From: Amycolatopsis sp. 195334CR
GTDB lineage: Bacteria; Actinomycetota; Actinomycetes; Mycobacteriales; Pseudonocardiaceae
DNA: 64,000 nt
Assembly: GCF_017309385.1 (NCBI RefSeq)
Contig: NZ_JAFJMJ010000003.1
Span: 1 to 64,000, forward strand
Direction of reading: 5' to 3'
This document shows positions 248 through 25,018 of this stretch, piece by piece. The position numbers were made by a program, and so were the translations under genes. Under the pieces are notes generated by a model that was not told the DNA's origin, did not search any database, and saw only the letters and a list, made by a program, of their open reading frames with translations. Numbering within the stretch: the stretch's first letter is position 1; each line of letters starts with the position of its first letter.

Positions 248-259
248 AGTGTATACCGT
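248..259 (+). promoter_or_regulatory. GntR operator site A, upstream of the formate dehydrogenase operon
   Basis: AGTGTATACCGT matches 10 of 12 positions of the palindrome ACTGYATRCAGT found at five other promoters of the oxalate island. It lies 29 bp upstream of the fdsG start. The core resembles the TGTATACA-type operators of FadR-subfamily GntR proteins. Assignment to the GntR encoded at 10414-11166 is inference. Confidence 0.7.
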
Positions 260-288
260 ATGCACCGGGACGGGATGGGAGCGGGAAG

Positions 289-759
289 ATGAGCGACATG
301 GCCGACCGCGCACGCGCCGTGGTCGACGCACACCGCGGTGACCGGGGCGCGTTGCTGCCGATACTGCACGGGCTGCAGGCCGAGTTCGGCTACGTCGACC
401 AGGCACTGCTGCCCCTCGTGGCCAAGGAGCTGAACCTCTCCCGCGCCGACGTGCACGGCGTGGTCAGCTTCTACACCGACTTCCGCACCGAACCGGCCGG
501 GCGCACCGTGGTGAAGCTGTGCCGCGCGGAGGCCTGCCAGTCGGTCGGCGCGGAACGCCTGGTCGCGCACGCCGAGCAGGTGCTCGGCAGCAAGGTCGGC
601 CAGACCACCGCCGACGGCTCGGTGACCCTGGAGCAGGTCTTCTGCCTGGGCAACTGCGCGCTCGGGCCAGCCGGCCAGGTCGACGGGCGGCTGCACGGCA
701 ACCTCGACGAGGCCGCGCTGGACAGCATCATCGCCGAAGCGGAGGCGGGCAAGGCATGA
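289..759 (+). CDS. fdsG: NAD-dependent formate dehydrogenase, gamma subunit (NuoE-like)
   Basis: This 156-aa protein has the thioredoxin-like [2Fe-2S] fold of NuoE and FdsG. It should pass electrons in the cytoplasmic formate:NAD+ oxidoreductase complex. The four cluster cysteines are visible in LCRAEACQSVG and VFCLGNCALGP, the usual C-x4-C and C-x3-C pairs. The ATG is preceded by a purine-rich GGGAGCGGGAAG. The stop overlaps the next start as ATGA, so the four fds genes form a translationally coupled operon. Operator site A just upstream suggests control together with the oxalate genes. A stray NuoE of respiratory complex I is unlikely, because NuoF- and FdhA-type subunits follow and no other nuo genes are present. 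Confidence 0.93.
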   Translation: MSDMADRARAVVDAHRGDRGALLPILHGLQAEFGYVDQALLPLVAKELNLSRADVHGVVSFYTDFRTEPAGRTVVKLCRAEACQSVGAERLVAHAEQVLGSKVGQTTADGSVTLEQVFCLGNCALGPAGQVDGRLHGNLDEAALDSIIAEAEAGKA

Positions 760-2303
760 CCATCACGATCTACGTCCCCAGGGATTCCGCGGCCGTTTCG
801 GTCGGCGCCGACGCGGTGGCCGAGGCCATCGCGCGCGACGCCGAGGCGCTCGGCGAGGACATCCGCGTGGTGCGCAACGGTTCCCGCGGCATGCTCTGGC
901 TGGAGCCGCTGGTCGAGGTGGCCACCGAAGCGGGCCGGATCGGCTACGGGCCGGTCACCCCCGGCCGCGCCGGCGAGGTGCTCGCCGCCGTGCTGGACGA
1001 CGGCGAGCACGAACTGAACCTCGGCCGCGTCGAGGACCTGCCGTGGATGACCGGCCAGACCCGGCTCTGCTTCGCGCGCGTCGGCCTCACCGATCCGCTT
1101 TCCGCCGACGACTACCTCGCGCACGGCGGCACCGCCGGACTCCGGAAGGCGCTCGAACAGGACCCGGCGGAGGTCGTCGCCGCGGTGACCGGATCCGGGC
1201 TGCGCGGCCGCGGTGGTGCCGGGTTCCCCGCCGGGATCAAGTGGAAGACCGTGCTCGACGCCCCGGCCGAGCAGAAGTTCATTTGCTGCAACGCCGACGA
1301 GGGCGACAGCGGCACCTTCGCCGACCGCATGCTGATCGAGGGCGACCCGTTCTGCCTGATCGAGGGCATGACCATCGCCGCGTACGCGACCGGGGCCACC
1401 GAGGGCTACGTCTACCTCCGCTCCGAGTACCCGGACGCGGTCGCCACCCTGCGCCAGGCCATCGAGATCGCCTACGCGCGCGGCTGGCTCGGCGAGAACG
1501 TCCTCGGCACCGGCACCCACTTCGACCTGTTCGTGCGCGTCGGCGCGGGTGCCTACATCTGCGGCGAGGAGACCTCCATGCTGGAAAGCCTGGAGGGCAA
1601 ACGCGGCATGGTGCGGGCGAAACCGCCGATCCCGGCGATCACCGGCCTGTTCGGCAAGCCGACCGTGGTGAACAACGTGCTCACGCTCGCGTCCGTGCCG
1701 GTGATCCTCGCCGACGGCGCCGAGGCCTACGCCGCGCTCGGCCGCGAACGCTCGCGCGGCACCCAGGTGTTCCAGCTGGCGGGCAACATCGCGCGCGGCG
1801 GGGTGTTCGAGACCGCGTTCGGCATGTCGCTGGCCGAGCTGATCAACGACTACGGCGGCGGCACCCGCTCGGGCAGGCCGGTGCGCGCGGTCCAGGTCGG
1901 TGGCCCGCTCGGCGCCTACCTCCCGGCCTCGCAGCTGGACGTGCCGCTCGACTACGAGGCGTTCACCGAGGTCAACGCGATGCTCGGGCACGGCGGCATC
2001 GTGGTCTTCGACGACACCGTCGACATGGCGTCGATGGCCCGGTTCGCGATGGAGTTCTGCGCGGAGGAGTCCTGCGGCAAGTGCACGCCCTGCCGGGTCG
2101 GCTCGGTGCGCGGGGTGGAGACCATCGACCGGATCAGAGCCGGTGAGGACCCCGACGCGAACCTGGCGCTGCTCGGCGACCTCTGTGACCTGATGACCGA
2201 CGGATCGCTGTGCGCGATGGGCGGGCTCACGCCGAACCCGGTGCTCAGCGCGCTCCGCCACTTCCCGGACGACTTCACCGCGCGGCAGGAGAGCCAGTCA
2301 TGA
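756..2303 (+). CDS. fdsB: NAD-dependent formate dehydrogenase, beta subunit (NuoF-like, FMN/NADH binding)
   Basis: This 515-aa diaphorase subunit takes electrons from the Fe-S chain to FMN and reduces NAD+. The FMN/NADH-binding glycine-rich motif GLRGRGGAGFPAGIKW is at residues 149-163. A second motif, GAYICGEETSMLESLEG, lies near residue 270. The [4Fe-4S] ligands C440, C443 and C446 (ESCGKCTPCR) and C486 are present. The N-terminal ~110 residues are an extension beyond the NuoF core, as in FdsB-type subunits. The start overlaps the fdsG stop and the stop overlaps the fdsA start (ATGA at both ends), which supports stoichiometric expression. Confidence 0.94.
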   Translation: MTITIYVPRDSAAVSVGADAVAEAIARDAEALGEDIRVVRNGSRGMLWLEPLVEVATEAGRIGYGPVTPGRAGEVLAAVLDDGEHELNLGRVEDLPWMTGQTRLCFARVGLTDPLSADDYLAHGGTAGLRKALEQDPAEVVAAVTGSGLRGRGGAGFPAGIKWKTVLDAPAEQKFICCNADEGDSGTFADRMLIEGDPFCLIEGMTIAAYATGATEGYVYLRSEYPDAVATLRQAIEIAYARGWLGENVLGTGTHFDLFVRVGAGAYICGEETSMLESLEGKRGMVRAKPPIPAITGLFGKPTVVNNVLTLASVPVILADGAEAYAALGRERSRGTQVFQLAGNIARGGVFETAFGMSLAELINDYGGGTRSGRPVRAVQVGGPLGAYLPASQLDVPLDYEAFTEVNAMLGHGGIVVFDDTVDMASMARFAMEFCAEESCGKCTPCRVGSVRGVETIDRIRAGEDPDANLALLGDLCDLMTDGSLCAMGGLTPNPVLSALRHFPDDFTARQESQS

Positions 2304-5080
2304 CGCTGTACAAGGAACACGACCTCGGCACCCCCGCGGTACCCGGCCCGGCCACGGTTTCGGTGGAGGTGGACGGCCACCCGGTGGTGGTGCCCGAGGG
2401 CACCTCGGTGATGCGCGCGGCGGCGATGACCGGGATCGACATCCCGAAGCTGTGCGCCACCGACAGCCTCGACGCGTTCGGCTCGTGCCGGCTGTGCCTG
2501 GTCGAGATCGACGGCCGCCGCGGCACGCCGGCCTCGTGCACCACGCCGGTCGCCGAGGGCATGAAGGTCCGCACGCAGACGCCGCGGGTGGAGAAGCTGC
2601 GCCAGGGCGTGATGGAGCTGTACATCTCCGACCACCCGCTCGACTGCCTGACCTGCTCGGCCAACGGCGACTGCGAACTGCAGGACATGTCCGGTGTGGT
2701 CGGCCTGCGCCAGGTCCGCTACGGCTACGAGGGCGAGAACCACCTCGACCTCCTGGCCGACACGAGCAACCCGTACTTCGACTTCACCCCGTCCAAGTGC
2801 ATCGCCTGCTCGCGGTGCGTGCGGGCGTGCGGCGAGGTCCAGGGCACCTTCGCGCTGACTATCGAGGGCCGCGGCTTCGAGTCGAAGGTGGCCGCGGGCG
2901 CCGGCGAGTTGTTCATGGACTCCGAGTGCGTCTCCTGCGGGGCGTGCGTGCAGGCCTGCCCGACCGCCACGCTGCAGGAGAAGTCGGTGGTCGAGCTGGG
3001 CATGCCGACCCGCAGCGTGATCACCACCTGCGCCTACTGCGGGGTGGGCTGCTCGTTCAAGGCCGAACTGCGCGGTGACGAACTGGTGCGCATGGTGCCG
3101 CACAAGGACGGCGGCGCTAACGAGGGCCACTCCTGCGTCAAGGGCCGGTTCGCCTTCGGTTACGCCACGCATCCCGACCGCAAGCTCAAGCCGATGGTCC
3201 GCGAGAGCATCACCGACGAGTGGCGCGAGGTCGAATGGGACACCGCGATCACCTACGTGGCCGACAAGATGCGCGAGGTGCAGGCGCGCCACGGCGTCGG
3301 CGCGATCGGCGGCATCACCTCCTCCCGCTGCACCAACGAAGAGGTGTACGTGGTGCAGAAGATGGTGCGCGCCGCGTTCGGCAACAACAACGTCGACACC
3401 TGCGCGCGGGTCTGCCACTCCCCCACCGGCTACGGGCTCAAGCAGACCTTCGGCACCTCGGCGGGCACGCAGGACTTCCGCTCGGTGGCGGCCTCCGACG
3501 TGATCGTGGTGATCGGCGCGAACCCGACCGACGGGCACCCGGTGTTCGCCTCGCGGATGAAGCGGCGGCTGCGCGAGGGCGCGAAGCTGGTGGTGATCGA
3601 CCCCCGCCGGATCGACCTGGTCCGCTCCCCGCACATCGAGGCGGCGCACCACCTGCAACTCGCGCCGGGCACGAACGTCGCGGTGGTCAACGCGATGGCG
3701 CACGTGGTGGTCACCGAGGGGCTGGTCGACCAGTCCTTTGTGGACGAGCGCTGCGAGGACTTCGAGGACTGGGCGGAGTTCATCGCCCGGCCGGAGAACA
3801 GCCCGGAGGCGATCGAAGAGCTCAGCGGGGTCCCGGCGGCCGACCTGCGGGCCGCCGCGCGGCTGTACGCCACCGGCGGCAACGCCGCGATCTACTACGG
3901 CCTCGGCGTCACCGAGCACAGCCAGGGCTCGACCATGGTGATGGGCATGGCGAACCTGGCCATGGCGACCGGCAACATCGGCCGCGAGGGCGTCGGGGTC
4001 AACCCGTTGCGCGGGCAGAACAACGTGCAGGGTTCGTGCGACATGGGTTCGTTCCCGCACGAGCTGTCCGGGTACCGGCACGTCTCCGACGACGCGGTCC
4101 GCGAGGTGTTCGAGACGCTCTGGGACCGGCCGCTGCTGGCCGAACCCGGCCTGCGCATCCCGAACATGTTCGACGCGGCGATCGACGGCACCTTCCGCGC
4201 GTTGTTCGTCCAGGGTGAGGACATCGCGCAGTCCGACCCGAACACCAAGCACGTCACCGCCGCGCTCGAAGCCCTCGACCTGCTCGTGGTGCAGGACCTG
4301 TTCCTCAACGAGACCGCCAAGTTCGCGCACGTGTTCCTGCCCGGCACCTCGTTCCTGGAGAAGGACGGCACCTTCACCAACGCCGAGCGCCGGATCAACC
4401 GGGTGCGCCCGGTGATGGCCCCGAAGACCGGCAAGCACGAGTGGGAGATCGTCTGCGAGATCGCCGAGGCGATGGACTACCCGATGTCCTACGCGGCGAC
4501 CAGCGAGATCATGGACGAGATCGCCGCGGTGACGCCGACCTTCGCCGGGGTGTCGTTCGAGAAGCTGGACAAGCTCGGCAGCGTGCAGTGGCCGTGCAAC
4601 GACGCCGCGCCCGAGGGCACGCCGATCATGCACGTGGACGGCTTCGTGCGCGGGAAGGGCCGGTTCGTGCCGACCACCTACGTGCCGACCGAGGAGCGCA
4701 GCACCCGCAAGTTCCCGCTGATCCTGACCACCGGGCGGATCCTGAGCCAGTACAACGTGGGCGCGCAGACCCGGCGCACCAAGAACGTGGCCTGGCACCC
4801 GGAGGACCTGCTGGAGATCCACCCGCACGACGCCGAGGTCCGCGGCATCGCCAACGGGGACGAGGTGGCGCTGTCGAGCCGGGTGGGCGAGACGAAGTTG
4901 CGGGCGATCCTGTCCGACCGGATGCCGGTCGGCGTGGTCTACACCACCTTCCACCACCCGGTGACCGGGGCGAACGTGGTGACCACGGAGAACTCCGACT
5001 GGGCGACGAACTGCCCGGAGTACAAGGTGACCGCGGTGCAGGTGGCCCTGCGCACCGCGGTCCCGGCGATGGCGGAGTAG
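2300..5080 (+). CDS. fdsA: NAD-dependent formate dehydrogenase, catalytic alpha subunit (Mo-bisMGD, cysteine type)
   Basis: This 926-aa molybdoenzyme oxidises formate to CO2. An N-terminal [2Fe-2S] ferredoxin domain (CGSCRLC-like cysteines near residues 51-83) is followed by an NADH-dehydrogenase-G-type segment (DCLTCSANGDCELQD). Two [4Fe-4S] ferredoxin motifs come next (CIACSRCVRAC and CVSCGACVQAC). The molybdopterin oxidoreductase domain then starts with CAYCGVGC and ends in a molydopterin-binding domain. The metal-ligand cysteine is C372 in the motif CARVCHSPTG, the position of selenocysteine in E. coli FdhF, so this enzyme needs no selenium. FdhD (21205) and a DUF6457 protein (19891) encoded in the same island are probably used for its maturation. 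Confidence 0.95.
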   Translation: MTLYKEHDLGTPAVPGPATVSVEVDGHPVVVPEGTSVMRAAAMTGIDIPKLCATDSLDAFGSCRLCLVEIDGRRGTPASCTTPVAEGMKVRTQTPRVEKLRQGVMELYISDHPLDCLTCSANGDCELQDMSGVVGLRQVRYGYEGENHLDLLADTSNPYFDFTPSKCIACSRCVRACGEVQGTFALTIEGRGFESKVAAGAGELFMDSECVSCGACVQACPTATLQEKSVVELGMPTRSVITTCAYCGVGCSFKAELRGDELVRMVPHKDGGANEGHSCVKGRFAFGYATHPDRKLKPMVRESITDEWREVEWDTAITYVADKMREVQARHGVGAIGGITSSRCTNEEVYVVQKMVRAAFGNNNVDTCARVCHSPTGYGLKQTFGTSAGTQDFRSVAASDVIVVIGANPTDGHPVFASRMKRRLREGAKLVVIDPRRIDLVRSPHIEAAHHLQLAPGTNVAVVNAMAHVVVTEGLVDQSFVDERCEDFEDWAEFIARPENSPEAIEELSGVPAADLRAAARLYATGGNAAIYYGLGVTEHSQGSTMVMGMANLAMATGNIGREGVGVNPLRGQNNVQGSCDMGSFPHELSGYRHVSDDAVREVFETLWDRPLLAEPGLRIPNMFDAAIDGTFRALFVQGEDIAQSDPNTKHVTAALEALDLLVVQDLFLNETAKFAHVFLPGTSFLEKDGTFTNAERRINRVRPVMAPKTGKHEWEIVCEIAEAMDYPMSYAATSEIMDEIAAVTPTFAGVSFEKLDKLGSVQWPCNDAAPEGTPIMHVDGFVRGKGRFVPTTYVPTEERSTRKFPLILTTGRILSQYNVGAQTRRTKNVAWHPEDLLEIHPHDAEVRGIANGDEVALSSRVGETKLRAILSDRMPVGVVYTTFHHPVTGANVVTTENSDWATNCPEYKVTAVQVALRTAVPAMAE

Positions 5081-6419: not shown

Positions 6420-7142
6420 ATGAGTTGTCACCTCGTCGCGCTCTGCGTCGACGCACACGAACCGCGTGCTCTCGCACGCTTCTGGGCCGGGCTACTGGAC
6501 TGGGAACCGGCCGGGGACGGCACCACGCTGCTGCCGCGCGACGACACCGGGTTCCGGCTGCGGTTCCTGCCGTCGCGGGAGCCGAAGACCACGCAGAACC
6601 AGATGCACTTCGACCTGACCAGCACCTCCCTCGACGACCAGCGGACGACCGTGGCCAGGGCCCTCGCACTGGGCGGCAGGCACATCGACATCGGCCAGCG
6701 CCCCGAAGAGGAACACGTGGTGCTCGCCGATCCCGAGGGCAACGAGTTCTGCGTCATCGAGCCGGGCAACGGGTTCCTCGCCGACTGCGGCTTCGTCGGC
6801 GCGCTGGCGGGTGACGGTTCGCCGGAAGCCGGGTACTTCTGGAGCGCGGCGCTGGGCTGGCCGCTGGTCTGGGACCAGGACCAGGAGACCGCGATCCGGT
6901 CGCCGCACGGCGGCCCGAAGCTCACCTGGGGCGGTCCGCCGCTGCCGCCGAAGACCGGGAAGTACCGGCTGCACTTCGACCTGATGCCCGACGGCGACCA
7001 GCGCGCCGAGGTCGACCGCCTCCGCTCGCTCGGCGCGACCCCCGCCGACATCGGGCAGGGCGAGGTCAGCTGGGTGGTGCTGGCCGATCCCGACGGCCAC
7101 GAGTTCTGCCTCCTCGACCCGCTGACCCCGCCCGGTGCCTAG
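6420..7142 (+). CDS. Two-domain VOC (glyoxalase/bleomycin-resistance-like) protein
   Basis: This 240-aa protein has two vicinal-oxygen-chelate modules, residues about 1-118 and 122-238. Each ends in the same kind of strand (VLADPEGNEFCVIEPG and VLADPDGHEFCLLDP). Such actinobacterial proteins are usually annotated Glyoxalase_6-like, and the substrate is unknown. The ATG at 6420 follows a G-rich stretch and begins the conserved domain directly (MSCHLVALCVDAHEP), so it is preferred to upstream in-frame starts. Its stop overlaps by 4 bp the convergent aldehyde dehydrogenase stop. Confidence 0.85.
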   Translation: MSCHLVALCVDAHEPRALARFWAGLLDWEPAGDGTTLLPRDDTGFRLRFLPSREPKTTQNQMHFDLTSTSLDDQRTTVARALALGGRHIDIGQRPEEEHVVLADPEGNEFCVIEPGNGFLADCGFVGALAGDGSPEAGYFWSAALGWPLVWDQDQETAIRSPHGGPKLTWGGPPLPPKTGKYRLHFDLMPDGDQRAEVDRLRSLGATPADIGQGEVSWVVLADPDGHEFCLLDPLTPPGA

Positions 7143-8677
7143 GAATGGAGCGTGTAGTGCGGGAAGTTGCCCGGGGGCCGCTCACCGGCCGGGCCCTGGG
7201 TGACCGAGCGCACCAGCAGTTCACCACCGACGAACGCACCCCGCCACGAGGCGCCGAGCCCGCCGAACAGCTCGTCCCGGTCCCCGCGCGAGCGCGGCCG
7301 GTTGACGCCCACCTTGAACGCGCGCACCTGCGCCGAAAGCCGTTGCGCGGTGGTCTCCTCGTCGCAGGACAGGGTGGCCACCAGCGCCCCGTTGCTGACG
7401 TTCATCGCGGCCAGCAGCTGCGCCTCGGTGTCCACCACCTCGATCGTGTCGACCGGGCCGAACGGCTCGGCGTGGAACAGCGGTGACGAGCGCGGCGGGT
7501 CCAATATGGACACCGGGGCCAGGTAGGCGGAGGTGTCCTGGCCGGGCAGGAAGCGCCCTTCGGCGACCTCACCGCGGTGCAGCGGCACCCCGCCGTTGCG
7601 CACCGCCTCCTCCACCTGGTCGGCCAGCTCCTTCGCCTTGCCCGCGTTGATCAGCGGGCCGAAATCCAGTTCCGGCAACGGGTCGTCCGGCGCCTCGACG
7701 GCGAGCGGGTGGCCGAAGCGCACCGAGCGCACGGCGGGCAGGTACACCGAGAGGAAGCGGTCGAACAGCTCGCGCTGGACCACGAACCGCGGATAGGCCG
7801 TGCACCGCTGCTTGGCGTAGTCGAAGGTCTTGCGGATCTGCCCGGCGAGGGTGTCCCAGTCCCCGTACTCCCACACGCCCCAGCAGTTCAGCCCCTCCTG
7901 TTCGAGCACGTGCCGCTTGCCGGGATCGGCCAGCGCGGCGGCGATCCGGCCGCCGGCGTCCCGTCCGCCCACAAAGGACACACAGCCCAGCGAGGGGCCG
8001 CCGACCAGCGGGCCGGACAGTTCCGCGCCGCTGCCGCTGAGCAGGGTCAGCGGCAGCCCCTCGCGCACCGCCAGCGCCACCGCCATGGTCAGGCAGCACA
8101 GCCCGCCGTCGGTCGGGGTCTTGGCGATCACCGCGTTGCCCGAGAGGGCCTGCACCAGCATCGCGTGCATCAGCACGCTCATCGGGTAGTTCCAGCTGGC
8201 GATGTTGCTGACCGGGCCGTCCAGCGGGACGCGGCCTTCCAGCATCGGCTCGATTTCCTCGACGTACCAGCGCACCCCGTCGATGCAGCGGTCCACGTCG
8301 GCCATCGCCAGCCGCCACGGTTTGCCGATCTCCCACACCAGCAGGAGGCCGAGCAGTTCGCGGTGCTCGGTCAGCGAGTCCAGCGCCGCGCCGACCCGCG
8401 CCTTGCGTTCGGCCAGCGGCACTTCGCGCCAGCGGAGGTGGGCGTCGAGCGCGGCGGCCACCGCGTCGGTGGCGGTGCCCGCGGTCAGCCGCGGGGGCCC
8501 GTGGATGGCGCTGCCGTCCACCGGCGAGGTGGCGTCACCGGGCCTGCCGTCCCACGTCCACCGCCCGCCCCAGTGGTTCGCCACGCGTTCGGGCGAGAAC
8601 GCCTCGGGGGCCAGAGCGCAGGAACGCCCGTAGGCCGAGGCCCAGTCAGTACCGGGTTTGAGCGAAAAACTACCCAT
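7139..8677 (-). CDS. Aldehyde dehydrogenase family protein of the oxalate island
   Basis: This 512-aa NAD(P)-dependent aldehyde dehydrogenase has oxyanion-site N163 (ASWNYP), K186 (IAKTPTD) and a catalytic-Glu region at HVLEQEGLN (E259/E261). Catalytic C292 lies in KQRCTAYPR. The substrate is not evident; glyoxylate, glycolaldehyde or another C2 aldehyde would suit the context. AAGGAG sits well placed before the ATG. The gene is divergent from the OFA transporter, and the shared 112-bp spacer holds operator site B, so it is predicted to be co-regulated with oxalate uptake and breakdown. The Glu motif is LEQEG where most family members have LELGG, a notable deviation. Confidence 0.88.
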   Translation of the reverse strand: MGSFSLKPGTDWASAYGRSCALAPEAFSPERVANHWGGRWTWDGRPGDATSPVDGSAIHGPPRLTAGTATDAVAAALDAHLRWREVPLAERKARVGAALDSLTEHRELLGLLLVWEIGKPWRLAMADVDRCIDGVRWYVEEIEPMLEGRVPLDGPVSNIASWNYPMSVLMHAMLVQALSGNAVIAKTPTDGGLCCLTMAVALAVREGLPLTLLSGSGAELSGPLVGGPSLGCVSFVGGRDAGGRIAAALADPGKRHVLEQEGLNCWGVWEYGDWDTLAGQIRKTFDYAKQRCTAYPRFVVQRELFDRFLSVYLPAVRSVRFGHPLAVEAPDDPLPELDFGPLINAGKAKELADQVEEAVRNGGVPLHRGEVAEGRFLPGQDTSAYLAPVSILDPPRSSPLFHAEPFGPVDTIEVVDTEAQLLAAMNVSNGALVATLSCDEETTAQRLSAQVRAFKVGVNRPRSRGDRDELFGGLGASWRGAFVGGELLVRSVTQGPAGERPPGNFPHYTLHS

Positions 8678-8736
8678 CTGTACTCCTTGCCGGAAGGTGC
8701 CGGGAAAGGGTGTGTTCTGCGTCTCAAGACCTGTAG

Positions 8737-8748: not shown

Positions 8749-8789
8749 ATGGAACATGTTGGCAACGCCGTTCTCGGTCGGAGGCGAAG

Positions 8790-16778: not shown

Positions 16779-18008
16779 TCAGATCACTCCGTTCGACTGG
16801 AGCTCGGCGAACTCGGCGGCGTCCACGCCCAGCTCGCTGCCGTAGATTTCCTGGTTGTGCTCACCCAGCAACGGGGAGCGCTCGACCTCGACCGGCGAGT
16901 CCGACAGCTTGATCGGGCAGCCGACGGTGGTGAACTCCCCGCGCTCCGGGTGCTCGACCCGGACCACCATGTCGTTGTCGGCCAGCGAGGTGTCCTCGAT
17001 CAGCTCCTTGGTGGACATGATCGGTCCACAGGGGACGTTGTGCGCGTTGAGCTTCGCGAGCACCTCCCACTTGCTGTGGTTGATCGTCCACTCCTCGATC
17101 AGCTGGAACATCTTGTCCAGCTTGGGCAGCCGCGCCTCCGGCGTGGCCCATTCGGGGTCGTCGGCCAGTTCCGGGCGGCCGATCAGCTTCGCGATCGGCT
17201 CCCAGCCGACCGGCTGCACGATCACGTACACGTAGTCGTTCGGCCCGCCGGGGGCGCAGCGCACCGCCCACCCCGGCTGCCCGCCGCCGGAGGCGTTGCC
17301 CGAGCGGGGAACCTCGTCACCGAAGTTCTCGTTCGGGTACTCCGCCAGCGGGCCGTGGGTCAGGCGCTGCTGGTCGCGCAGCTTGACCCGGCACAGGTTG
17401 AGCACCGCGTGCTGCATGGCCACGGTGACCCGCTGTCCGCGCCCGGTGTGCTCGCGCTGGTAGAGCGCGGCGAGAATGCCGGCCACGGTGTGGATGCCGG
17501 TGCCCGAGTCGCCGATCTGCGCGCCGGTCGCCATCGGCGCGCCGTCCTCGAAGCCGGTGGTGCTCATCGAGCCGCCCATCGCCTGCGCGACCACCTCGTA
17601 GGCCTTGAAGTGCTTGTACGGCCCGTCGCCGAAGCCCTTGATGGAGGCGTAGATCAGCCGCGGGTTGAGCTCCCGCAGCTTCTCCCAGCCGTAGCCCATC
17701 CGCTCGATGGTGCCCGGCCCGAAGTTCTCCACCAGGATGTCGAAGCGGGGCACCATCTCGGTGAACAGCTGTTTGCCCCGCTCGCTCTTCATGTTCAGCG
17801 TGATGCTGCGCTTGTTGCTGTTCAGCATGGTGAAGTAGAGACTGTCCACATCGGGCAGATCGCGCAGCTGCTTGCGGGTGATGTCGCCCGAGGGCGCTTC
17901 CAGCTTCACCACGTCCGCGCCCAGCCAGGCCAGCACCTGGGTGCACGACGGGCCGGACTGCACGTGGGTCATGTCGAGCACGCGGATGCCCGCCAACGCC
18001 TTGGTCAT
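16779..18008 (-). CDS. frc: Formyl-CoA:oxalate CoA-transferase
   Basis: This 409-aa class III CoA-transferase swaps CoA from formyl-CoA to oxalate. It follows the Oxalobacter enzyme closely from memory of that family: start MTKALAGIRVLDMTHVQSGP, then NKRSITLNMK and VENFGPGTIERMGYGW. The catalytic Asp is D167 in IGDSGTGIH (D169 in Oxalobacter). The substrate-gating glycine loop is GNASGGGQPGW, followed by the closing LLGEH motif. This gene is the firmest evidence that the island handles oxalate. GGGAGG precedes the ATG, 11 bp after the oxc stop. It should work in a cycle with the decarboxylase, which regenerates formyl-CoA. Confidence 0.94.
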   Translation of the reverse strand: MTKALAGIRVLDMTHVQSGPSCTQVLAWLGADVVKLEAPSGDITRKQLRDLPDVDSLYFTMLNSNKRSITLNMKSERGKQLFTEMVPRFDILVENFGPGTIERMGYGWEKLRELNPRLIYASIKGFGDGPYKHFKAYEVVAQAMGGSMSTTGFEDGAPMATGAQIGDSGTGIHTVAGILAALYQREHTGRGQRVTVAMQHAVLNLCRVKLRDQQRLTHGPLAEYPNENFGDEVPRSGNASGGGQPGWAVRCAPGGPNDYVYVIVQPVGWEPIAKLIGRPELADDPEWATPEARLPKLDKMFQLIEEWTINHSKWEVLAKLNAHNVPCGPIMSTKELIEDTSLADNDMVVRVEHPERGEFTTVGCPIKLSDSPVEVERSPLLGEHNQEIYGSELGVDAAEFAELQSNGVI

Positions 18009-18019: not shown

Positions 18020-19756
18020 CTACTTGTACATGGTCTGGTTCATCGTTCCCGGCGCGTAGACGTCGGGGTCGACCCAGACGTTGATCAGCGACGGCTTGCC
18101 GGACTCGCGGGCGCGCTCCAGCGCGGGCCGGATGTCCGCCGGGTCGCGGACCTCCTCGCCGTAACCGCCGAGCATGCGGGCGAACTCGTCGTAGCGGACG
18201 TCGCCGAGGGTGTTGCCGATGCGGCCGCGTGGTTCGCCGTACTTCTGGATCTGGCCGTAGCGGATCTGGTTCATCGACGAGTTGTTCCCGACGATGCCGA
18301 CGAACGGCAGGTTGAACCGGACCATCGTCTCGAAGTCCCAGCCGGTCAGGGAGAAGGCGCCGTCACCGAAGAGGCAGACCACTTCGGACTCGGGCCGGGC
18401 GTACTTGGCCGCCATCGCGAACGGCACGCCGACGCCGAGCGTCCCGAGTGGACCGGGGTCCATCCAGTTGCCCGGTGCCTTGGGCTGCACCACCTGCCCG
18501 GAGAAGGTGACGATGTCGCCGCCGTCGCCGATGTAGATGGAGTCTTCGGTGAGGAACTCGTTGATCTCGTGCACCAGCCGGTACGGGTCGATCGGGTTCT
18601 GCTCGGAGAGCTGGCGCGGCAGGCGCTTCTGGTACGCCTCGTTCTCCACCGCGCGCAGTTCCTCCAGCCACGCCTTGCGCTTGACCGCGCCGTTGCTGAT
18701 CCGGCCGGTGGAGGCCGCGGTCACCGCGGTCAGCACCAGGCCGGCGTCGCCGACGATGCCGAGGTCGACGTCGCGGTTCTTGCCCACCGTGCGGTAGTCG
18801 AGGTCGACCTGGACCACGGTGGCCTCGTGCGAAAGCCTGCGCCCGTAACCCATCCGGAAGTCGAACGGGGTGCCGACGATGATGATCAGGTCGGCGTTGT
18901 TGAAGGCGTAGCGGCGTGAGAGCTGGAAGTGGTGCGGGTCCCCGGGCGGCAGCGTGCCGCGGCCGGAGCCGTTCATGTACGCGGGTACGTTGAGCCGCCG
19001 CGCGAACTCGGTGGCCGCCTCGGTGGCCCGGCAGGTCCACACCTGGCTGCCCAGCAGCACGCACGGCTTTTCCGCGTGCGCCAGCAGGTCCGCGAGCTTC
19101 TCGATGGCCACCGGGTCACCGGCCGAGCGGGTGGAGGCGCGGTAGTGCCCCGCCTCGGGCACGCGGGCCTTCTCCACCGGGACCTTCGCGTCGAGCACGT
19201 CGCGCGGGATCTCCAGGAACGACGGCCCCGGCGCGCCGTGGAAGCACTCGCGGAAGGCCATCGAGACGATGTCGGCCGCGCGTTCGGTGGCGGGCACGGT
19301 GGCCGCGAACTTGGTGATCGGGGTCATCATGTCCACGTGCGGGAGGTCCTGCAGGGAGCCCATCTTGTGCTGGGACAACGCGCCCTGGCCGCCGATCAGC
19401 AGCATCGGGCTCTCCGCGCGCAGCGCGTTCGCCACGCCGGTGACCGCGTCGGTGGTGCCGGGGCCGGCGGTGACCACCGCGCAGCCCGGCTTCCCGGTGA
19501 TCCGGGCGTAACCGTCGGCGGCGTGCGCCGCGACCTGTTCGTGCCGGACGTCGACCACGTCGATGCCCTCGTCCACGCACCCGTCGTAGATGTCGATGAT
19601 GTGCCCGCCGCAGAGGGTGAAGATCACGTCCACGCCCTCGGCCTTGAGTGCTTTCGCCACGAGGTGGCCGCCTGAGATCAGTTCGGGCGTTTCCGTACGC
19701 GCCGGCTCACTGACCCCCGCGGCGCTCTCCGGCACTGTCTGGACCGTCTGCGCCAT
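18020..19756 (-). CDS. oxc: ThDP-dependent oxalyl-CoA decarboxylase-type lyase (divergent clade)
   Basis: This 578-aa protein has the three-domain thiamine-diphosphate fold. The activating Glu is E75 in VRHEQVAAHAADG, and the ThDP/Mg motif is GDGAFSLTGWDFET ending at NN (residues 464-492). Next to frc it should convert oxalyl-CoA to formyl-CoA and CO2. However, it resembles actinobacterial IlvG and 2-hydroxyacyl-CoA lyases. Oxalobacter OXC has an active-site Tyr-Glu pair where this has L135-Q136 (GSLQDLP), and NNSSMNQIRYGQ replaces NNGGIY. Acyloin lyase activity releasing formyl-CoA is an alternative. The ATG at 19756 is chosen because the operator lies upstream, excluding longer in-frame starts. 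Confidence 0.82.
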   Translation of the reverse strand: MAQTVQTVPESAAGVSEPARTETPELISGGHLVAKALKAEGVDVIFTLCGGHIIDIYDGCVDEGIDVVDVRHEQVAAHAADGYARITGKPGCAVVTAGPGTTDAVTGVANALRAESPMLLIGGQGALSQHKMGSLQDLPHVDMMTPITKFAATVPATERAADIVSMAFRECFHGAPGPSFLEIPRDVLDAKVPVEKARVPEAGHYRASTRSAGDPVAIEKLADLLAHAEKPCVLLGSQVWTCRATEAATEFARRLNVPAYMNGSGRGTLPPGDPHHFQLSRRYAFNNADLIIIVGTPFDFRMGYGRRLSHEATVVQVDLDYRTVGKNRDVDLGIVGDAGLVLTAVTAASTGRISNGAVKRKAWLEELRAVENEAYQKRLPRQLSEQNPIDPYRLVHEINEFLTEDSIYIGDGGDIVTFSGQVVQPKAPGNWMDPGPLGTLGVGVPFAMAAKYARPESEVVCLFGDGAFSLTGWDFETMVRFNLPFVGIVGNNSSMNQIRYGQIQKYGEPRGRIGNTLGDVRYDEFARMLGGYGEEVRDPADIRPALERARESGKPSLINVWVDPDVYAPGTMNQTMYK

Positions 19757-19812
19757 TGCCTCGTCACTCCTCACTCGGTCGTACTGCCGTACCCGCTGAG
19801 CTGATTCCGCAT

Positions 19813-19824
19813 ACTGCATACCGT
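19813..19824 (-). promoter_or_regulatory. GntR operator site D, upstream of the oxc-frc operon
   Basis: ACTGCATACCGT on the plus strand matches 11 of 12 positions of ACTGYATRCAGT. It lies 56 bp upstream of the oxc start, between oxc and the DUF6457 gene. A neighbouring extra half (CGCATAC) extends the site. Confidence 0.75.
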
Positions 19825-19890
19825 ATGAATCCATATCGTGGACCTCGGCGCTGACCGTGTCCACCCCCAATCGTCGGATGACCGCGATCT

Positions 19891-20136
19891 TCAGTCGCGC
19901 CAGTCGATCCGCGGCCAGCCGTCGGCGAGGCGGTGCACCCGCGCCACCGCTTCGGCCGCCGGGACACCGCGCCCGACCGCCACGCCGAGCAGGAACGCGG
20001 TGATCGGCGCGGCCGGTCTGGCCACCGCCGAAGCGGATTCCCTGGCCACCTTCAGCACCACCGCCCGCTCGCAGTCCGCGGCGTCAAGGCCGAGTTCGGC
20101 ACAGACCGCCACGGTCCAGTCGTTGAGCATGTTCAT
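19891..20136 (-). CDS. DUF6457 protein (molybdenum-cofactor-associated family)
   Basis: This 81-aa helical protein begins MNMLNDWTVAVCAELGLD and contains the family core ARPAAPITAFLLGVAVGRG. In many actinomycetes DUF6457 is found beside or fused to MobA, the enzyme that makes molybdopterin guanine dinucleotide. A role in cofactor supply for the formate dehydrogenase of this island is therefore likely but unproven. GAGGTG precedes the ATG. The divergent spacer to the PanE-like gene holds operator site E; site D lies downstream, before oxc. Confidence 0.8.
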   Translation of the reverse strand: MNMLNDWTVAVCAELGLDAADCERAVVLKVARESASAVARPAAPITAFLLGVAVGRGVPAAEAVARVHRLADGWPRIDWRD

Positions 20137-20172: not shown

Positions 20173-20200
20173 TTGACGAGAGGTACCCATACCGTATACT
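20173..20200 (+). promoter_or_regulatory. Putative promoter of the PanE-like/fdhD operon
   Basis: TTGACG (20173-20178) and TATACT (20195-20200) are separated by 16 bp and resemble -35 and -10 boxes of a housekeeping sigma factor. The expected start point near 20207 is inside operator site E, so a bound repressor would block initiation. Confidence 0.55.
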
Positions 20201-20209
20201 GCATACAAT
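20198..20209 (+). promoter_or_regulatory. GntR operator site E (PanE-like/fdhD and DUF6457)
   Basis: ACTGCATACAAT matches 11 of 12 positions of the palindrome. It lies 21 bp upstream of the PanE-like start and 61 bp upstream of the divergent DUF6457 start. It overlaps the -10 box of the putative promoter. Confidence 0.75.
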
Positions 20210-20230: not shown

Positions 20231-21205
20231 GTGAAAGTCGCTGTTCTCGGCGCCGGCGCCATCGGCGCGTATGTCGGTGCCCATCTCAGCCGGGCCGGAG
20301 CCGAGGTCCACCTCGTCGCCCGCGGCCCCCACCTCAAGGCAATGGCGGAAGCAGGCGTCCGCGTGCTCAGCGCACGCGGAGACTTCGTGGTCCGGCCACG
20401 GGTCACCGACGACCCGGGTTCCATCGGCCCGGTCGACCACGTGTTCCTCGGCCTCAAGGCCAACGGGTACGCCGCGGCGGGCCCGATGGTCAAACCCCTG
20501 CTGCACGAGAAGACCACGCTGATCGCCGCGCAGAACGGCATCCCGTGGTGGTACTTCCACAAGCTCGCCGGGAAGTACGAGAACTACCGCATCCACAGCG
20601 TCGACCCGGACGGGGCGGTCACCGCCGCGCTGCCGGTCGAGCGCGCCATCGGCTGCGTGGTCTACGCGGCCACCGAGATCACCGCGCCCGGGGTGATCAC
20701 CCACCTGGAGGGCACCCGCTTCTCCATCGGCGAACCCGACGGCTCGATCTCGCCCCGGTGCTCCGAGTTCTCCGCGGCGATGATCGCCGGCGGGCTCAAG
20801 TGCCCGGTCGAAGCGGACCTGCGCCGCGACATCTGGCTCAAGCTGATGGGCAACATCGCCTTCAACCCGATCAGCGCGCTGGCCAGGGCCACCATGGCCG
20901 GGATCTGCCGTCACCTCGGCGCCCGCGAAGTGGTGGTGCAGATGATGCGGGAGACCCTCGCGGTGGCCACCGCGCTCGGCGCGAACCCCGAGATCTCCAT
21001 CGAACGCAGGCTCGCCGGTGCCGAACGCGCCGGGGAGCACAAGACCTCCACGCTCCAGGACCTGGAGAAGGGCAAACCGCTCGAACTGGACGTGCTGTTG
21101 CAGGCGGTGGTGGAACTGGCCGAGCTGACCGGGGTCGAGGTGCCGACGGTGCGCGCGGTCTGCGCGCTGGCGGACCTGCTCAACCACCAGCTGGTGTCGG
21201 CCTGA
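20231..21205 (+). CDS. Ketopantoate-reductase-like dehydrogenase, candidate oxalyl-CoA reductase
   Basis: This 324-aa protein has an N-terminal Rossmann fold (VAVLGAGAIGAYVGAHLSRAG) and a C-terminal ApbA helical domain. The catalytic Lys and Asn spacing is in DIWLKLMGNIAFNPISAL. Homologues include PanE (ketopantoate reductase). In Methylobacterium extorquens a PanE paralogue reduces oxalyl-CoA to glyoxylate, and the setting here (oxc, frc, glxR) favours that activity. Its GTG start has AAGGAG 7 nt upstream. The stop overlaps the fdhD start, and operator site E lies just ahead. A true pantothenate role is less likely given the neighbours. Confidence 0.8.
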   Translation: MKVAVLGAGAIGAYVGAHLSRAGAEVHLVARGPHLKAMAEAGVRVLSARGDFVVRPRVTDDPGSIGPVDHVFLGLKANGYAAAGPMVKPLLHEKTTLIAAQNGIPWWYFHKLAGKYENYRIHSVDPDGAVTAALPVERAIGCVVYAATEITAPGVITHLEGTRFSIGEPDGSISPRCSEFSAAMIAGGLKCPVEADLRRDIWLKLMGNIAFNPISALARATMAGICRHLGAREVVVQMMRETLAVATALGANPEISIERRLAGAERAGEHKTSTLQDLEKGKPLELDVLLQAVVELAELTGVEVPTVRAVCALADLLNHQLVSA

Positions 21206-22044
21206 TGGGCAGGGTGACCGCGCGGCGGCGGGTCCTCCGGGTTTCGCCGTCCGGGCGGACGTCCCGCGCGGACACCCTGGCCGCCGAAGAACCACTGGAG
21301 GTGCGCGTCGGCGGGCGCGCGCTGTCGGTGACCATGCGCACGCCGGGCCACGACTTCGACCTCGCCGCCGGGTTCCTGGTGAGCGAGGGCGTGGTCGGCG
21401 CGACCGAGGAGATCACCGGGATCGCCTACTGCGCGGGCGCCACGTCGGACGGGTCGAACACGTACAACGTGCTCGACGTCCGGCTGGCGCCCGGCGTGGC
21501 GCTGCCGGAGTTCTCGCTCGACCGCAACGTCTACATGTCCTCGTCGTGCGGGGTGTGCGGCAAGGCGAGCCTGGACGCGGTCCGCACGGAGGCGCGGTGG
21601 TCGGTGCGGGAGGATTCTCTCGTTTTGGACCCCGCTGTGCTGTCGGGCCTGCCGGACACATTGCGTGCGGCGCAGCGGGTCTTCGACCGCACGGGCGGGC
21701 TGCACGCGGCCGGTCTGTTCACTGTGGACGGTGAGCTGCTGTGCCTGCGCGAGGACGTGGGGCGGCACAACGCGGTGGACAAGGTGGTCGGGTGGGCGTT
21801 GCGGGCGGGTCACCTGCCGCTGCGCTCGACCATCCTCCTGGTCTCCGGGCGGGCCTCGTTCGAACTGGTGCAGAAGGCCGTCATGGCGGGCATCCCCGCG
21901 CTGGCCGCCGTTTCGGCCCCTTCGTCACTGGCCGCCGACCTCGCCGAAGACACCGGCCTCACCCTGATCGGCTTCCTGCGCGGCGACACGATGAACGTCT
22001 ACACCGCCACCCACCGCCTCACCTCGCTCACCCCGGTGCCGTGA
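21205..22044 (+). CDS. fdhD: Formate dehydrogenase accessory sulfurtransferase FdhD
   Basis: This 279-aa protein passes sulfur from a cysteine desulfurase to the Mo-bisMGD cofactor, which formate dehydrogenase requires for activity. The cysteine pair sits in SSSCGVCGKAS. The family motifs GHDFDLAAGFLVSEG and REDVGRHNAVDKVVG are intact. The start shares a base with the stop of the PanE-like gene, so a formate dehydrogenase maturation factor is translated with a carbon-branch enzyme. This couples fdsA function to the oxalate regulon. Confidence 0.95.
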   Translation: MGRVTARRRVLRVSPSGRTSRADTLAAEEPLEVRVGGRALSVTMRTPGHDFDLAAGFLVSEGVVGATEEITGIAYCAGATSDGSNTYNVLDVRLAPGVALPEFSLDRNVYMSSSCGVCGKASLDAVRTEARWSVREDSLVLDPAVLSGLPDTLRAAQRVFDRTGGLHAAGLFTVDGELLCLREDVGRHNAVDKVVGWALRAGHLPLRSTILLVSGRASFELVQKAVMAGIPALAAVSAPSSLAADLAEDTGLTLIGFLRGDTMNVYTATHRLTSLTPVP

Positions 22045-22105: not shown

Positions 22106-22987
22106 TCAGGGCTGGCCGGAGAGGCGTTCGGTCACCTTCAGCAGGGCGGAGTGGTCCAGGTGGCCGTGGCCCTGGGCCCGGGCGGCGGCGATGAGCTGCG
22201 CGGTCAACGCGCCGACCGGCAGCGCCACCTCCGCCTCCCTGGCGGCGGCGAGCACGATGCCCATGTCCTTGTGGTGCAGGTCGATCCGGAAGCCCGGCTG
22301 GAACTCCCGTGCCACCATCGACTTCCGCTTCAGTTCGAGGATCCGGCTGCCCGCCAGCCCGCCGGCCAGCACCTCCAGCCCGGCCGCGGCGTCCACACCG
22401 GACGCTTCCAGCAGCACGATCGCCTCGGCCACCAGTGCGTAGGTGCCGCCGACCACCAGCTGGTTCGCCGCCTTCACCGTCTGCCCGGCACCGTGCGGGC
22501 CGACGTGCACCACGGTCTTGCCGAGCACGTCGAAGATCCCGGTGGCGGCGAGGAAGTCCTTCTCCTCCCCACCGGCCATGATGGACAGCACGCCGTCGAT
22601 CGCGCCCTGCTGGCCACCGCTGACCGGCGCGTCGAGCACCCGGACGCAGCGCGTGGCGGCGAGCGCGGCCACCCGGCGCGAGGTCTCCGGCCGGATGGTG
22701 CTCATGTCGATCAGCAGCGTGCCCGGTTTCGCGTAGTCGAGCACCCCCTCCTCGCCCAGCACCACCTCCTCCACCTGCGGCGAGTCGGGCAGCATGGTGA
22801 TCACCACGTCGGCGTCGACCACCGCCTCGGCGATCCGGTCGCACGGACGGCCACCCGCGGCGACGAGCCGTTCGAGCGCCGGGCGGTGCACGTCGTACCC
22901 GGCCACCGTGTAACCGGCGGCCGCCAGGTTCACCGACATCGGGCCGCCCATGATGCCGAGCCCGATGAAACCGATCGACTGGGTCAT
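22106..22987 (-). CDS. glxR: 2-hydroxy-3-oxopropionate (tartronate semialdehyde) reductase
   Basis: This 293-aa beta-hydroxyacid dehydrogenase has the NAD(P) motif [17 protein letters not shown] at the N-terminus. The substrate motif [14 protein letters not shown], the catalytic Lys in [14 protein letters not shown] and the C-terminal HHKDMGI are present. These fit GlxR, which reduces tartronate semialdehyde to glycerate in glyoxylate use. A glyoxylate carboligase (gcl) that would make its substrate is not in the window. The ATG overlaps the stop of sucD-like by 4 bp, and the gene is the last in the operon under operator site F. 3-hydroxyisobutyrate dehydrogenase is an alternative. Confidence 0.85.
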
Positions 22988-23871
22988 TCGCCCTCCAAGA
23001 GCCGCCGCACCAGGTTGGCCGTTTCGGTCGGCGTCCGGCCGACGAGCACGCCGACGGCCTCCAGCGCCGCCTTCTTCGCCGCGGCCGTACCGGACGAACC
23101 GGAGACGATCGCGCCCGCGTGCCCCATGGTTTTCCCTTCCGGGGCGGTGAATCCGGCGACGTAACCGACCACCGGCTTGGTCACCCGCTCGGCGATGTAC
23201 TCCGCCGCGCGTTCCTCGGCGTCACCGCCGATCTCGCCGATCAGCACGATCACCTCGGTGTCCGGATCGGCCTGGAACTCGGCCAGCGCGTCGATGTGCG
23301 TGGTGCCGATGACCGGGTCGCCGCCGATGCCGACCGCGGTGGTGAAGCCGATGTCCCGCAGTTCGTGCATCAACTGGTAGGTCAGCGTGCCCGACTTCGA
23401 CACCAGCCCGATCGGCCCGGCCCCGGTGATGTCGGCCGGGATGATGCCCGCGTTGGACTTGCCGGGGCTGATCACGCCGGGGCAGTTCGGCCCGATGATC
23501 CGGGTCCGGCCGCCCTTGGCCACCGCGTGCGCCCAGAACCAGGCCGCGTCGTGCACCGGGATGCCCTCGGTGATCACCACGGCCAGGCCGATCTCCGCGT
23601 CGATCGCCTCGACCACGGCGTCCTTGGCGAACTTCGGCGGGACGAAGATCACCGAGGTGTCGGCGCCGGTTTCCACCATCGCCTTGCCCACGTCGTCGTA
23701 GACCGGCAGGTCCACCCCGCCGATCTGGGCGGTCTGCCCGCCCCGGCCCGGGGTGACCCCGCCGACCACGGTGGCGCCGGCGGCGAGCATGCGGGCGGTG
23801 TGCTTGCGCCCTTCGGACCCGGTCATGCCCTGGACGATGATCCGGGACCGGTCGGTGAGGAAGATCGCCAT
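22984..23871 (-). CDS. Succinyl-CoA-ligase-type alpha subunit (island paralogue)
   Basis: This 295-aa protein has the CoA-binding domain ([15 protein letters not shown]) and the NCPGVI segment. The phosphohistidine is in [13 protein letters not shown]. It pairs with the beta subunit encoded 4 bp upstream. Such pairs make succinyl-CoA in the TCA cycle or malyl-CoA in serine-cycle bacteria. The location with glxR under an island operator points to a special substrate, perhaps oxalate, malate or glycerate, rather than the housekeeping enzyme (inference). Confidence 0.88.
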
Positions 23872-23875
23872 CGGC

Positions 23876-24997
23876 TCACGCTCCCGCTAGTTCGGCCGCG
23901 CGCCGCGCGGCGGAGTCCATGGTGTCGGCCCGGATCAGCCCGGGCAGGGCCGCGCGGTCGAGGATCTCCCTGCCCGCTTCGGCGTTGTTGCCGTCCAGGC
24001 GCACCACGATCGGCCGTTCCACGGTGCCGAGCAGGTCGAAGGCCTTGACGATGCCGTCGGCGACCGCGTCGCAGGCGGTGATCCCGCCGAACACGTTCAC
24101 CAGCACGCTGCGCACGTCCGGATCGGACAGGATGATCTCCAGCCCGGCCGCCATCACCTCGGCCGAGGCGCCGCCGCCGATGTCGAGGAAGTTCGCCGGT
24201 GCCGCACCGGCCCCGGCCACCACGTCCAAAGTGGACATCACCAGCCCGGCGCCGTTGCCGATCACGCCGACGTGGCCGTCGAGCTTGACGTAGTTGAGCC
24301 CCTTGGCCTTCGCCGCCGATTCCAGTGGTTCCTCGGCTTCGGTGTCCACCAGTTCGGCGTGCGCCGGGTGGCGGAAGCCGGCGTTGGTGTCGAGCGTGAC
24401 CTTGCCGTCCAGCGCGACGATCCGGTCGTCGCCGTCGCGGGCCAGCGGGTTCACTTCGACCAGCGTGGCGTCCTCGCCGACGAAGACCTCCCACAGCTTC
24501 ACCAGTACGTCGGCGGCGGTGTCCGGCAGCCCGGCGGCCGCCGCGATTTCCTTGGCCTTGGCCAGATCCACGCCGCCGATGGCGTCGATCGGGACCCTGG
24601 CCAGCGAATCGGGGTTCTCCTCGATGTCCACCCCGCCCTCGGCCGAGGCCAGCGCCAGGAAGGTGCGCCCGGCGCGGTCGAGCAGGTAGGACACGTAGAA
24701 CTCGGCGCGGATGTCCGAGGCCGGGGTGACCAGCAGGCGCCGGACCACGTGCCCCTTGATGTCCATGCCGAGAATGGCTTCGGCGTCCGACCACGCGGCT
24801 TCGGGGGTTCTGGCCAGCTTCACTCCCCCGGCCTTGCCGCGCCCGCCGGTTTTCACCTGGGCCTTGAGGACCACGGGAGTGCCGAATTCCGCGGCCGCGT
24901 CGACGGCGGCGCCGGGAGCGGTGACCACGCGCTGCGGGCCGACCGGAACTCCGTGCGCCGAGAACAGCTCCTTGGCTTGGTACTCGTACAGATCCAC
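23876..24997 (-). CDS. Succinyl-CoA-ligase-type beta subunit (island paralogue)
   Basis: This 373-aa ATP-grasp subunit starts, in family register, [19 protein letters not shown], which fixes the GTG at 24997 as the start. It has the nucleotide-binding stretch [17 protein letters not shown], the Mg-binding LVEVNPLA and the glycine-rich [10 protein letters not shown]. No Shine-Dalgarno sequence fits. Operator site F ends only 9 bp before the GTG, so the mRNA is probably leaderless or nearly so. First gene of sucC-sucD-glxR. Confidence 0.87.
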
Positions 24998-25006
24998 GAT
25001 CTGTAG

Positions 25007-25018
25007 ACTGTATGCAGT
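25007..25018 (-). promoter_or_regulatory. GntR operator site F, directly before the sucCD-glxR operon
   Basis: ACTGTATGCAGT is a perfect match to ACTGYATRCAGT. It is embedded in 21 bases (25001-25021) identical to site B. It is 9 bp from the sucC-like GTG and 96 bp from the divergent GH15 start. Confidence 0.8.

Follow-up and report, generated by a model that had tools for sequence, protein, structure and literature searches.

This report focuses on a stretch of 64,000 nucleotides (the window) from Amycolatopsis sp. 195334CR, positions 1 to 64,000 of contig NZ_JAFJMJ010000003.1 in a genome of 9.9 Mb, and on a 25-kb block within it that carries a putative oxalate/glyoxylate/formate island, the gene of a FadR/FCD-type GntR regulator and six copies (sites A to F) of a predicted operator. 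Judged from the sequences of this and related genomes, the block forms a genuine local regulon that is conserved and has an operator of unusual build, and it is probable, at about 0.7, that GntR represses it through arrays of short repeats phased at 7 bp. The window starts at base 1 of the contig and the view ends directly left of the fds genes; tandem GCTGACCCGG repeats occupy the contig end (1-200), ahead of site A. The sites, to which no strand is assigned, and the genes around them are as follows.

245..263, site A, predicted operator before fdsGBA (GTATAC at 251-256, GTATGC at 258-263, weak unit at 245-250)
289..5080, + strand, fdsG-fdsB-fdsA-like formate dehydrogenase genes (289-759, 756-2303 and about 2300-5080)
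7139..8677, - strand, aldehyde dehydrogenase (ALDH; PF00171)
8733..8752, site B, predicted operator between the divergent ALDH and OFA-like carrier genes
8790..10178, + strand, OFA-like MFS carrier (TIGR00890, 1.5e-35, 122.8 bits vs a cut-off of 374.85)
10329..10348, site C, predicted operator before gntR (GTATGC, GTAGGC, GTCGAC)
10414..11166, + strand, gntR, FadR/FCD-type regulator (250 aa from ATG 10414; ATG 10390 also possible)
14630..16777, - strand, NDP-forming acyl-CoA ligase of 715 aa in the oxc-frc operon
16779..18008, - strand, frc, formyl-CoA transferase (TIGR03253, 671.8 bits, cut-off 504.2)
18020..19756, - strand, thiamine diphosphate (TPP) enzyme, oxc-like, oxalyl-CoA decarboxylase candidate (NF006721, 251 bits vs a cut-off of 557)
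19802..19828, site D, predicted operator before the oxc-like/frc/acyl-CoA ligase operon (GCATAC at 19809, GCATAC at 19816, GTATGA at 19823, weak unit at 19802)
19891..20136, - strand, DUF6457 gene of 81 aa between sites E and D (PF20058, 9.1e-21)
20173..20200, + strand, promoter-like TTGACG-16-TATACT for panE, its -10 inside site E
20187..20206, site E, predicted operator between the divergent panE-fdhD and DUF6457 genes (CCATAC at 20187, GTATAC at 20194, GCATAC at 20201)
20231..21205, + strand, panE-like ketoacid reductase (NF005089, 430.9 bits, cut-off 223)
21199..22044, + strand, fdhD (PF02634, 7.5e-70)
22106..24997, - strand, sucC-sucD-glxR (sucC 23876-24997, sucD 22984-23871, glxR 22106-22987)
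25003..25022, site F, predicted operator before sucC, with a -10-like TACAGT (25012-25007, - strand) within it

An earlier reading of the same DNA (the original prediction) had reported six palindromes ACTGYATRCAGT at 248, 8737, 10326, 19813, 20198 and 25007, and these were recovered with 10, 12, 10, 11, 11 and 12 of 12 matches, i.e., with 2, 0, 2, 1, 1 and 0 mismatches, respectively. Its statements that sites B and F have 21 bases in common (CTGTAGACTGTATGCAGTATG) and that no site is more than 100 bp away from a plausible gene start also held. Site A faces the start of fdsG (289), site B lies between ALDH (8677, -) and the OFA-like carrier (8790, +), site C faces gntR (10390 or 10414), site D the oxc-like gene (19756, -) and site F sucC (24997, -). 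Site E lies between panE (20231, +) and the DUF6457 gene (20136, -); the latter had been omitted, and since it stands between sites D and E, site E is a divergent operator.

The operator had been described as a lone 12-bp palindrome, a description that was not borne out. Partial matches to the 12-mer recur at an offset of 7 bases (248/255, 8730/8737, 10326/10333, 20191/20198 and 25000/25007), which shows the 12-mer to be a single frame within a longer array; the full element consists of tandem GYATRC hexamers, usually 3-5 of them, 7 bp apart. Among 116 promoters of the window and its relatives, hexamers are spaced by 7 bp 195 times and by 14 bp 82 times, the remaining spacings from 1 to 17 occurring 0-7 times each and those of 18-25 occurring 3-17 times; 138 operon-internal sequences gave a spacing of 7 bp once and of 14 bp once (an exact GYATRC was paired with a second hexamer of at most one mismatch, and an exact pair counts twice). 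With up to 2 mismatches tolerated per unit, the best array holds exactly 3 units in 14/22 panE and 21/40 gntR promoters, 3-5 units in 22/22 sucC and 28/32 oxc promoters (4-5 units in 11/22 and 19/32, respectively), and fewer than 3 units in 3 panE, 13 gntR and 4 oxc promoters; the operon-internal sequences never exceed 2 units. The element thus has the two or more short repeats at fixed spacing that define a NanR-type repeat operator. The FadR-type likeness that had been claimed for the core was confirmed, as GTATAC fits the FadR-subfamily core GTM-N0-1-KAC in its GTM-N0-KAC form, as given in the available part of PMC4494728. Since GTATAC is itself such a core, each unit could seat a dimer.

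Motif forms scored against their reversed pattern as control include the 12-mer, a 3-unit pattern GTAKRCNGTATRCNGTATR and an 18-bp form CATACNGYATRCNGTATG / CATACTGYATRCAGTATG. The 3-unit pattern was derived from the six sites themselves, and its weight therefore comes from the tests in relatives. GntR relatives (E 1e-30) occur in 72 of 150 genomes of the family, and 61 of these 72, own genome included, are taken to hold an orthologue, i.e., a protein of about 54% identity or more. At 2 mismatches or fewer, the 3-unit pattern gave 89 hits vs 1 for the reversed control in 740 kb of fetched GntR-locus stretches, with overlapping registers (and strands) counted separately; 40 stretches were fetched round GntR relatives, one of which surrounds a truncated copy in the own genome. 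At the same threshold, 22 named loci, in part from the same genomes, gave 58 hits vs 0 in 377 kb, and class-level loci gave 20 vs 0 in 378 kb, 10/20 of the latter holding a site and 4/20 having none even at 3 mismatches. An unsupervised expectation-maximization (EM) search of upstream regions of up to 300 bp, with no motif given, recovered the element for oxc, panE, gntR and sucC. On the other five of the nine gene sets, OFA included, it converged on other, coding-like sequence; the six OFA promoters gave the array when 40 bp of coding sequence were included, not with the upstream part alone.

The 18-bp form marks promoters in the same way. At 3 mismatches or fewer it precedes oxc in 28/32, panE in 20/22, sucC in 22/22, gntR in 25/40 and OFA in 3/6 cases, although divergent neighbours share DNA and a single array may count for two genes, chiefly sucC and gntR; the reversed pattern reaches 3 mismatches in 1/40 gntR and 1/22 sucC promoters. 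It was found in 1/7 regions upstream of ALDH, in 0/3 and 0/6 upstream of FdhD and GlxR, and in 0/138 regions before Frc, the acyl-CoA ligase, Nramp, TerC and SucD. Genomes with the GntR gene carry a mean of 3.28 sites of this form and those without it 0.37 (control 0.35); at least two sites are present in 50/61 genomes with a GntR orthologue vs 7/89 without (Fisher p 2.4e-21), the control pattern reaching this number in 12/61 and 5/89. Through rearranged loci, the array accompanies oxc-frc, panE, sucCD, the carrier and gntR. Named relatives with arrays include Amycolatopsis, Prauserella, Haloechinothrix, Actinophytocola and Nonomuraea; the array form is kept in a second family (f18), and family f20 shows only 3-mismatch hits, e.g., CATACTGTAGACAATATT. 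In some relatives, formate dehydrogenase genes merely 31-50% identical to those of the window also lie near arrays. The claim of one operator type common to the regulon of these promoters is strongly supported. So is the earlier proposal of GntR as its likely binder, given the array at gntR itself and the co-occurrence across the 150 genomes.

Within the own genome, the outcome depends on the motif form. The 12-mer with up to 3 mismatches matches 40 times in the window vs 25.8 expected, and the genome-wide scan with it that the original prediction had proposed gave no enrichment, so that the 12-mer fell to the refuting condition set there, which the 3-unit pattern withstood; with 18 places vs 20 for the reversed control at 1 mismatch or fewer, it was dropped as a genome-wide matrix. 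A two-unit pattern, KYAKRCNGTAKRC, was likewise too loose (37 matches vs 35). The 3-unit pattern at 2 mismatches or fewer finds only sites B, E and F (0 mismatches) and D (2) in the 9.9 Mb. At 3 mismatches it finds A, C, 10 places outside the island and two that overlap sites B and E, and its reversed control has 17 matches in all at 3 or fewer. Sites A and C thus score at chance level and rest on conservation and position instead. Site A has 3 mismatches to the 3-unit pattern and 2 to the 18-bp form, to which site D has none; site C is the lowest-scoring of the six, and 17/22 named relatives carry its 20-base string GTATGCTGTAGGCAGTCGAC upstream of gntR with 0-1 mismatch. A counterpart of site B precedes the carrier gene in A. 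suaedae.

That the regulon is self-contained, as the original prediction had it, holds for the own genome as far as scanned: the 18-bp form at 2 mismatches or fewer finds two extra sites (control one), C2:2864047 and C3:1237319, which lie in or beside HTH/TetR genes and were rejected as regulon sites at background level. It does not hold for six relatives. The 14 stretches taken round genome hits comprise the island itself, two from genomes without an orthologue and 11 extra-island sites in GntR-bearing genomes, and 6/11 of these precede members of one orthologous ALDH family (75-86% identity) by 5-62 bp (L125, L129, L131, L132, L133 and L136; the gap of 5 bp, in L129, was worked out by hand). 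The two copies of this ALDH that were scanned are SSADH-like, with scores below every cut-off shown. Of the remaining sites, one stands ahead of TerC and another ahead of a nucleotidyl transferase that also shows a weaker resemblance to MobA; 3/11 resemble background (one with VanZ at a distance of 237 bp, one at TetR and one within an HTH gene), and two of these three belong to the own genome. The ALDH of the window, at 24-26% identity, was ruled out as an orthologue of the extra-island ALDH, and a search of the own genome for the latter gave no match at E 1e-100, an empty answer from the search tool that proves little.

Several arrays coincide with promoter-like elements. A scan of 8600-25200 gave four promoter-like pairs vs 0.7 expected, and in three of them the second hexamer lies inside site B, E or F; no such pair was found at sites C or D. 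Within site B it is a -10-like TACAGT (8742-8737, -) for ALDH. In promoters with an operator, 18 -10-like boxes lie inside operators (1,887 bp) vs 1 outside (30,858 bp), and by gene the operator holds such a box in 10/22 panE, 5/22 sucC and 3/36 gntR promoters. The overlap at panE and sucC favours repression there; there is no such overlap at oxc.

The regulator itself has an N-terminal winged helix (PF00392, 2.1e-20) and a C-terminal FCD domain (PF07729, 6.7e-29) by Pfam. It matches the NCBIfam NanR model NF003011 at 5.4e-26 with 91.7 bits, below the cut-off of 260, so that it is not classed as a NanR orthologue. The metal site of FCD proteins is made of Asp or Asn and three His. N144, H148, H190 and H212 are invariant in 61/61 GntR sequences. 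In the alignment to 3fms/3sxy they fall, as residues only, on an Asp and three His that we take to be metal-holding in proteins of this type; a site of this kind would suit an acid that chelates metal, oxalate for example. The scan of island proteins showed no DNA-binding protein other than GntR. Of the six other members of its GTDB genus, three carry GntR, at 58-61% identity, and the identity is 70-84% for several further genera and for five named Amycolatopsis; horizontal transfer is a candidate explanation. A truncated second copy (L085; G000:C3:1169311-1169802) shows 53% identity over residues 80-243, and no island genes were found round it.

From these data we infer the following mode of action, in which binding, multi-dimer assembly, repression and effector are all proposals. 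The six sites would be one operator type read by the GntR encoded at 10414-11166, and the operator would be built of usually 3-5 self-complementary GYATRC hexamers, each a complete FadR-subfamily core, three of which span 21 bp or about two helical turns. As long as no inducer is present, a number of GntR dimers would line up along the array, in the manner of NanR on (GGTATA)3, and cover the promoter cores of the formate dehydrogenase, ALDH/carrier, oxc-frc-CoA ligase, panE-fdhD/DUF6457, sucCD-glxR and gntR units. The inducer would be a small acid of the pathway that chelates metal, with oxalate the most likely candidate and glyoxylate or oxalyl-CoA less so. Once bound to the FCD domain at its Asn-His-His-His metal site, it would release GntR, and uptake, CoA activation, decarboxylation/reduction and the disposal of formate and glyoxylate would then come on together. 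The oxalate switch of the original prediction is likewise a proposal: Frc passes its curated cut-off and the TPP enzyme called oxc does not. The pairing of GntR with the operator is likely real, and its binding is perhaps multimeric by analogy with NanR. A more tentative idea, which we would not bet on at even odds, is that the array is a helical assembly track, a new FadR-type architecture in which each 7-bp step from one complete palindromic core to the next rotates the dimer by about 240 degrees, and the dimers wind round the DNA. If this were true, three units would make two turns and the frequent fourth or fifth would extend them, giving a steep cooperative oxalate switch common to Pseudonocardiaceae and Nonomuraea, present in changed form in a further actinomycete family and possibly tuned by a conserved 65-aa protein encoded after gntR.

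Alternative explanations differ in what they must explain away. Chance palindromes picked from a 25-kb block would account for the 12-mer being as common in the genome as its control; however, the cross-genome tests (relatives, EM, promoters vs internal genes, co-occurrence and spacing) leave this next to no probability, and conservation refutes it. A different regulator that co-occurs with the island might bind the arrays, since co-occurrence is not binding and some loci carry gntR without arrays. This is quite improbable, as GntR is the sole DNA-binding candidate among the island proteins scanned, its own gene has an array and genomes without it are at the background level of sites. More weight, though still below an even chance, goes to a single GntR dimer that reads the central palindrome (the 12-mer or the 18-bp CATACTGYATRCAGTATG), the flanks being extended half-site contacts without multi-dimer assembly. 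The 18-bp form is palindromic, this is the usual FadR-subfamily mode in the available part of PMC4494728, and most panE arrays have exactly three units (14/22); yet the four or five units of many oxc (19/32) and sucC (11/22) arrays go beyond the need of one dimer, and the flanking units repeat the complete hexamer in register.

GntR could also bind the arrays but activate, or act as a dual regulator, which we regard as unlikely. The distance from array to start codon is 100-264 bp for some oxc and gntR genes (at gntR, part of the distant arrays belong to a divergent neighbour), the oxc operators contain no strict sigma-70-like -10, and deletion of HypR, a Streptomyces FCD-type GntR, lowered one promoter, SCO6295, according to the part of PMC6608401 available. 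By contrast, a -10-like box falls under the array at panE, at sucC and at ALDH in the window, relatives have such overlaps too, and several arrays are 4-40 bp from the start codon, where activators rarely bind.

Repression by GntR through multi-unit arrays is the preferred reading, and a number of observations weigh against it. A -10-like box lies in the operator in 0/28 oxc and 0/3 OFA promoters, and AT-rich operators favour -10-like matches in any case. The genomes are kin, so that counts are not independent. Fewer than two sites are present in 11/61 GntR-bearing genomes; seven loci (L065, L066, L081, L110, L119, L120 and L124) have gntR but no site in the stretch fetched, and the single named Streptomyces locus has just a 3-mismatch hit behind gntR and no convincing array. 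Sites A and C are weak by score, lying at 3 mismatches to the 3-unit pattern among chance-level matches. The presumed metal site draws on the 3fms/3sxy alignment and on general background. NanR cooperativity depends on a 32-residue N-terminal extension, according to the available part of PMC8012715; in most GntRs some 10-33 poorly conserved residues precede the conserved RP.PLR, the start codons having been picked mechanically.

The gene labels of the original prediction are mostly correct, the OFA carrier and oxc, both under their family cut-offs, being the weaker ones. fdsG is over the NF004638 and fdsA over the TIGR01591 cut-off, fdsB is NuoF-like and under the cut-offs shown, and glxR (TIGR01505), sucD (NF004230) and sucC (NF001913) are over theirs. 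The best solved relatives of the oxc-like enzyme are 2-hydroxyacyl-CoA lyases and oxalyl-CoA decarboxylases; no canonical oxc above cut-off was found elsewhere in the genome, where the sole other match at E 1e-60 has 227 bits. The panE-like reductase is a candidate oxalyl-CoA reductase. Two different NDP-forming CoA ligases (14630-16777 and 22984-24997, -) stand behind arrays of one regulon. At 12 fetched loci, a relative of the DUF6457 gene occupies the equivalent position. Two further genes of the block belong here.

11288..11485, + strand, conserved small gene after gntR, 65 aa (no Pfam match)
13039..14547, - strand, Nramp-type metal transporter downstream of the oxc-frc operon (NF037982, over cut-off)

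The 65-aa protein has a motif like ADGRxxGLGL, and its gene shows 1108, 891 and 1762 substitutions at codon positions 1, 2 and 3. Relatives of the gene occur in 38/81 loci (some from the same genomes), in many beside gntR, and a protein search returned 23 entries including the window's own, the named ones being "hypothetical". It is present twice in L055 and L056, and in L084 and L071 a site-C operator lies directly ahead of it, a gntR being about 2 kb off. The Nramp gene may be co-transcribed with the oxc-frc operon; an operator of its own was found before it in 0/28 promoters. A TerC/Alx-type transporter gene (11492-12472, -) and the Nramp-type one hold their place between gntR and frc in many fetched loci, from which a link of oxalate use to metal handling is possible. 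No Rfam match at gathering score pointed to a riboswitch before TerC or Nramp in window 1-30000.

Oxalate is a large carbon pool of plants and fungi, and it is catabolized via frc, oxc and panE2 (oxalyl-CoA reductase) in Methylobacterium and Oxalobacter. The block considered here resembles that route in bringing together Frc, a TPP enzyme, a PanE-like reductase, formate dehydrogenase and GlxR, and differs from it in a TPP enzyme under the oxalyl-CoA decarboxylase cut-off and in the additional two NDP-forming CoA ligases, Nramp, DUF6457 and 65-aa genes. No regulator of actinomycete oxalate catabolism was found among the matches listed from the open-licence PMC literature, and the word "oxalate" is absent from the text of PMC4494728. 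The 7-bp rule is both a precise binding prediction and a means to find regulon members in other genomes, and it already points to the extra-island ALDH, the DUF6457 gene and the small protein.

In the available part of PMC6608401, HypR of Streptomyces coelicolor is, like the GntR proposed here, an actinomycete FCD-type regulator, an autorepressor with a small catabolic regulon and metal binding; it differs in its motif, CTNTGC(A/C)ATGTCAC, and in its substrate, hydroxyproline. FadR-subfamily operators, as far as PMC4494728 was available, share the GTATAC-type core with N0 and usually have one palindrome, whereas several cores stand in register here; NanR, NagQ and FarR are the direct-repeat cases named there. 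NanR of Escherichia coli, by analogy the closest precedent for array binding, belongs to the same FadR/FCD subfamily and has a short-repeat operator with GTAT cores, on which three dimers occupy three GGTATA repeats, at least two repeats are needed and binding weakens when the spacers are lengthened by six bases (PMC8012715, available part). The arrays described here differ in their self-complementary hexamer at 7 bp, usually in 3-5 units before actinomycete oxalate/formate genes, and in a GntR with no clear match to the N-terminal extension reported for NanR in that part of the source, and they add to NanR another example of the way in which dimers of GntR proteins could be packed along operators of this kind.

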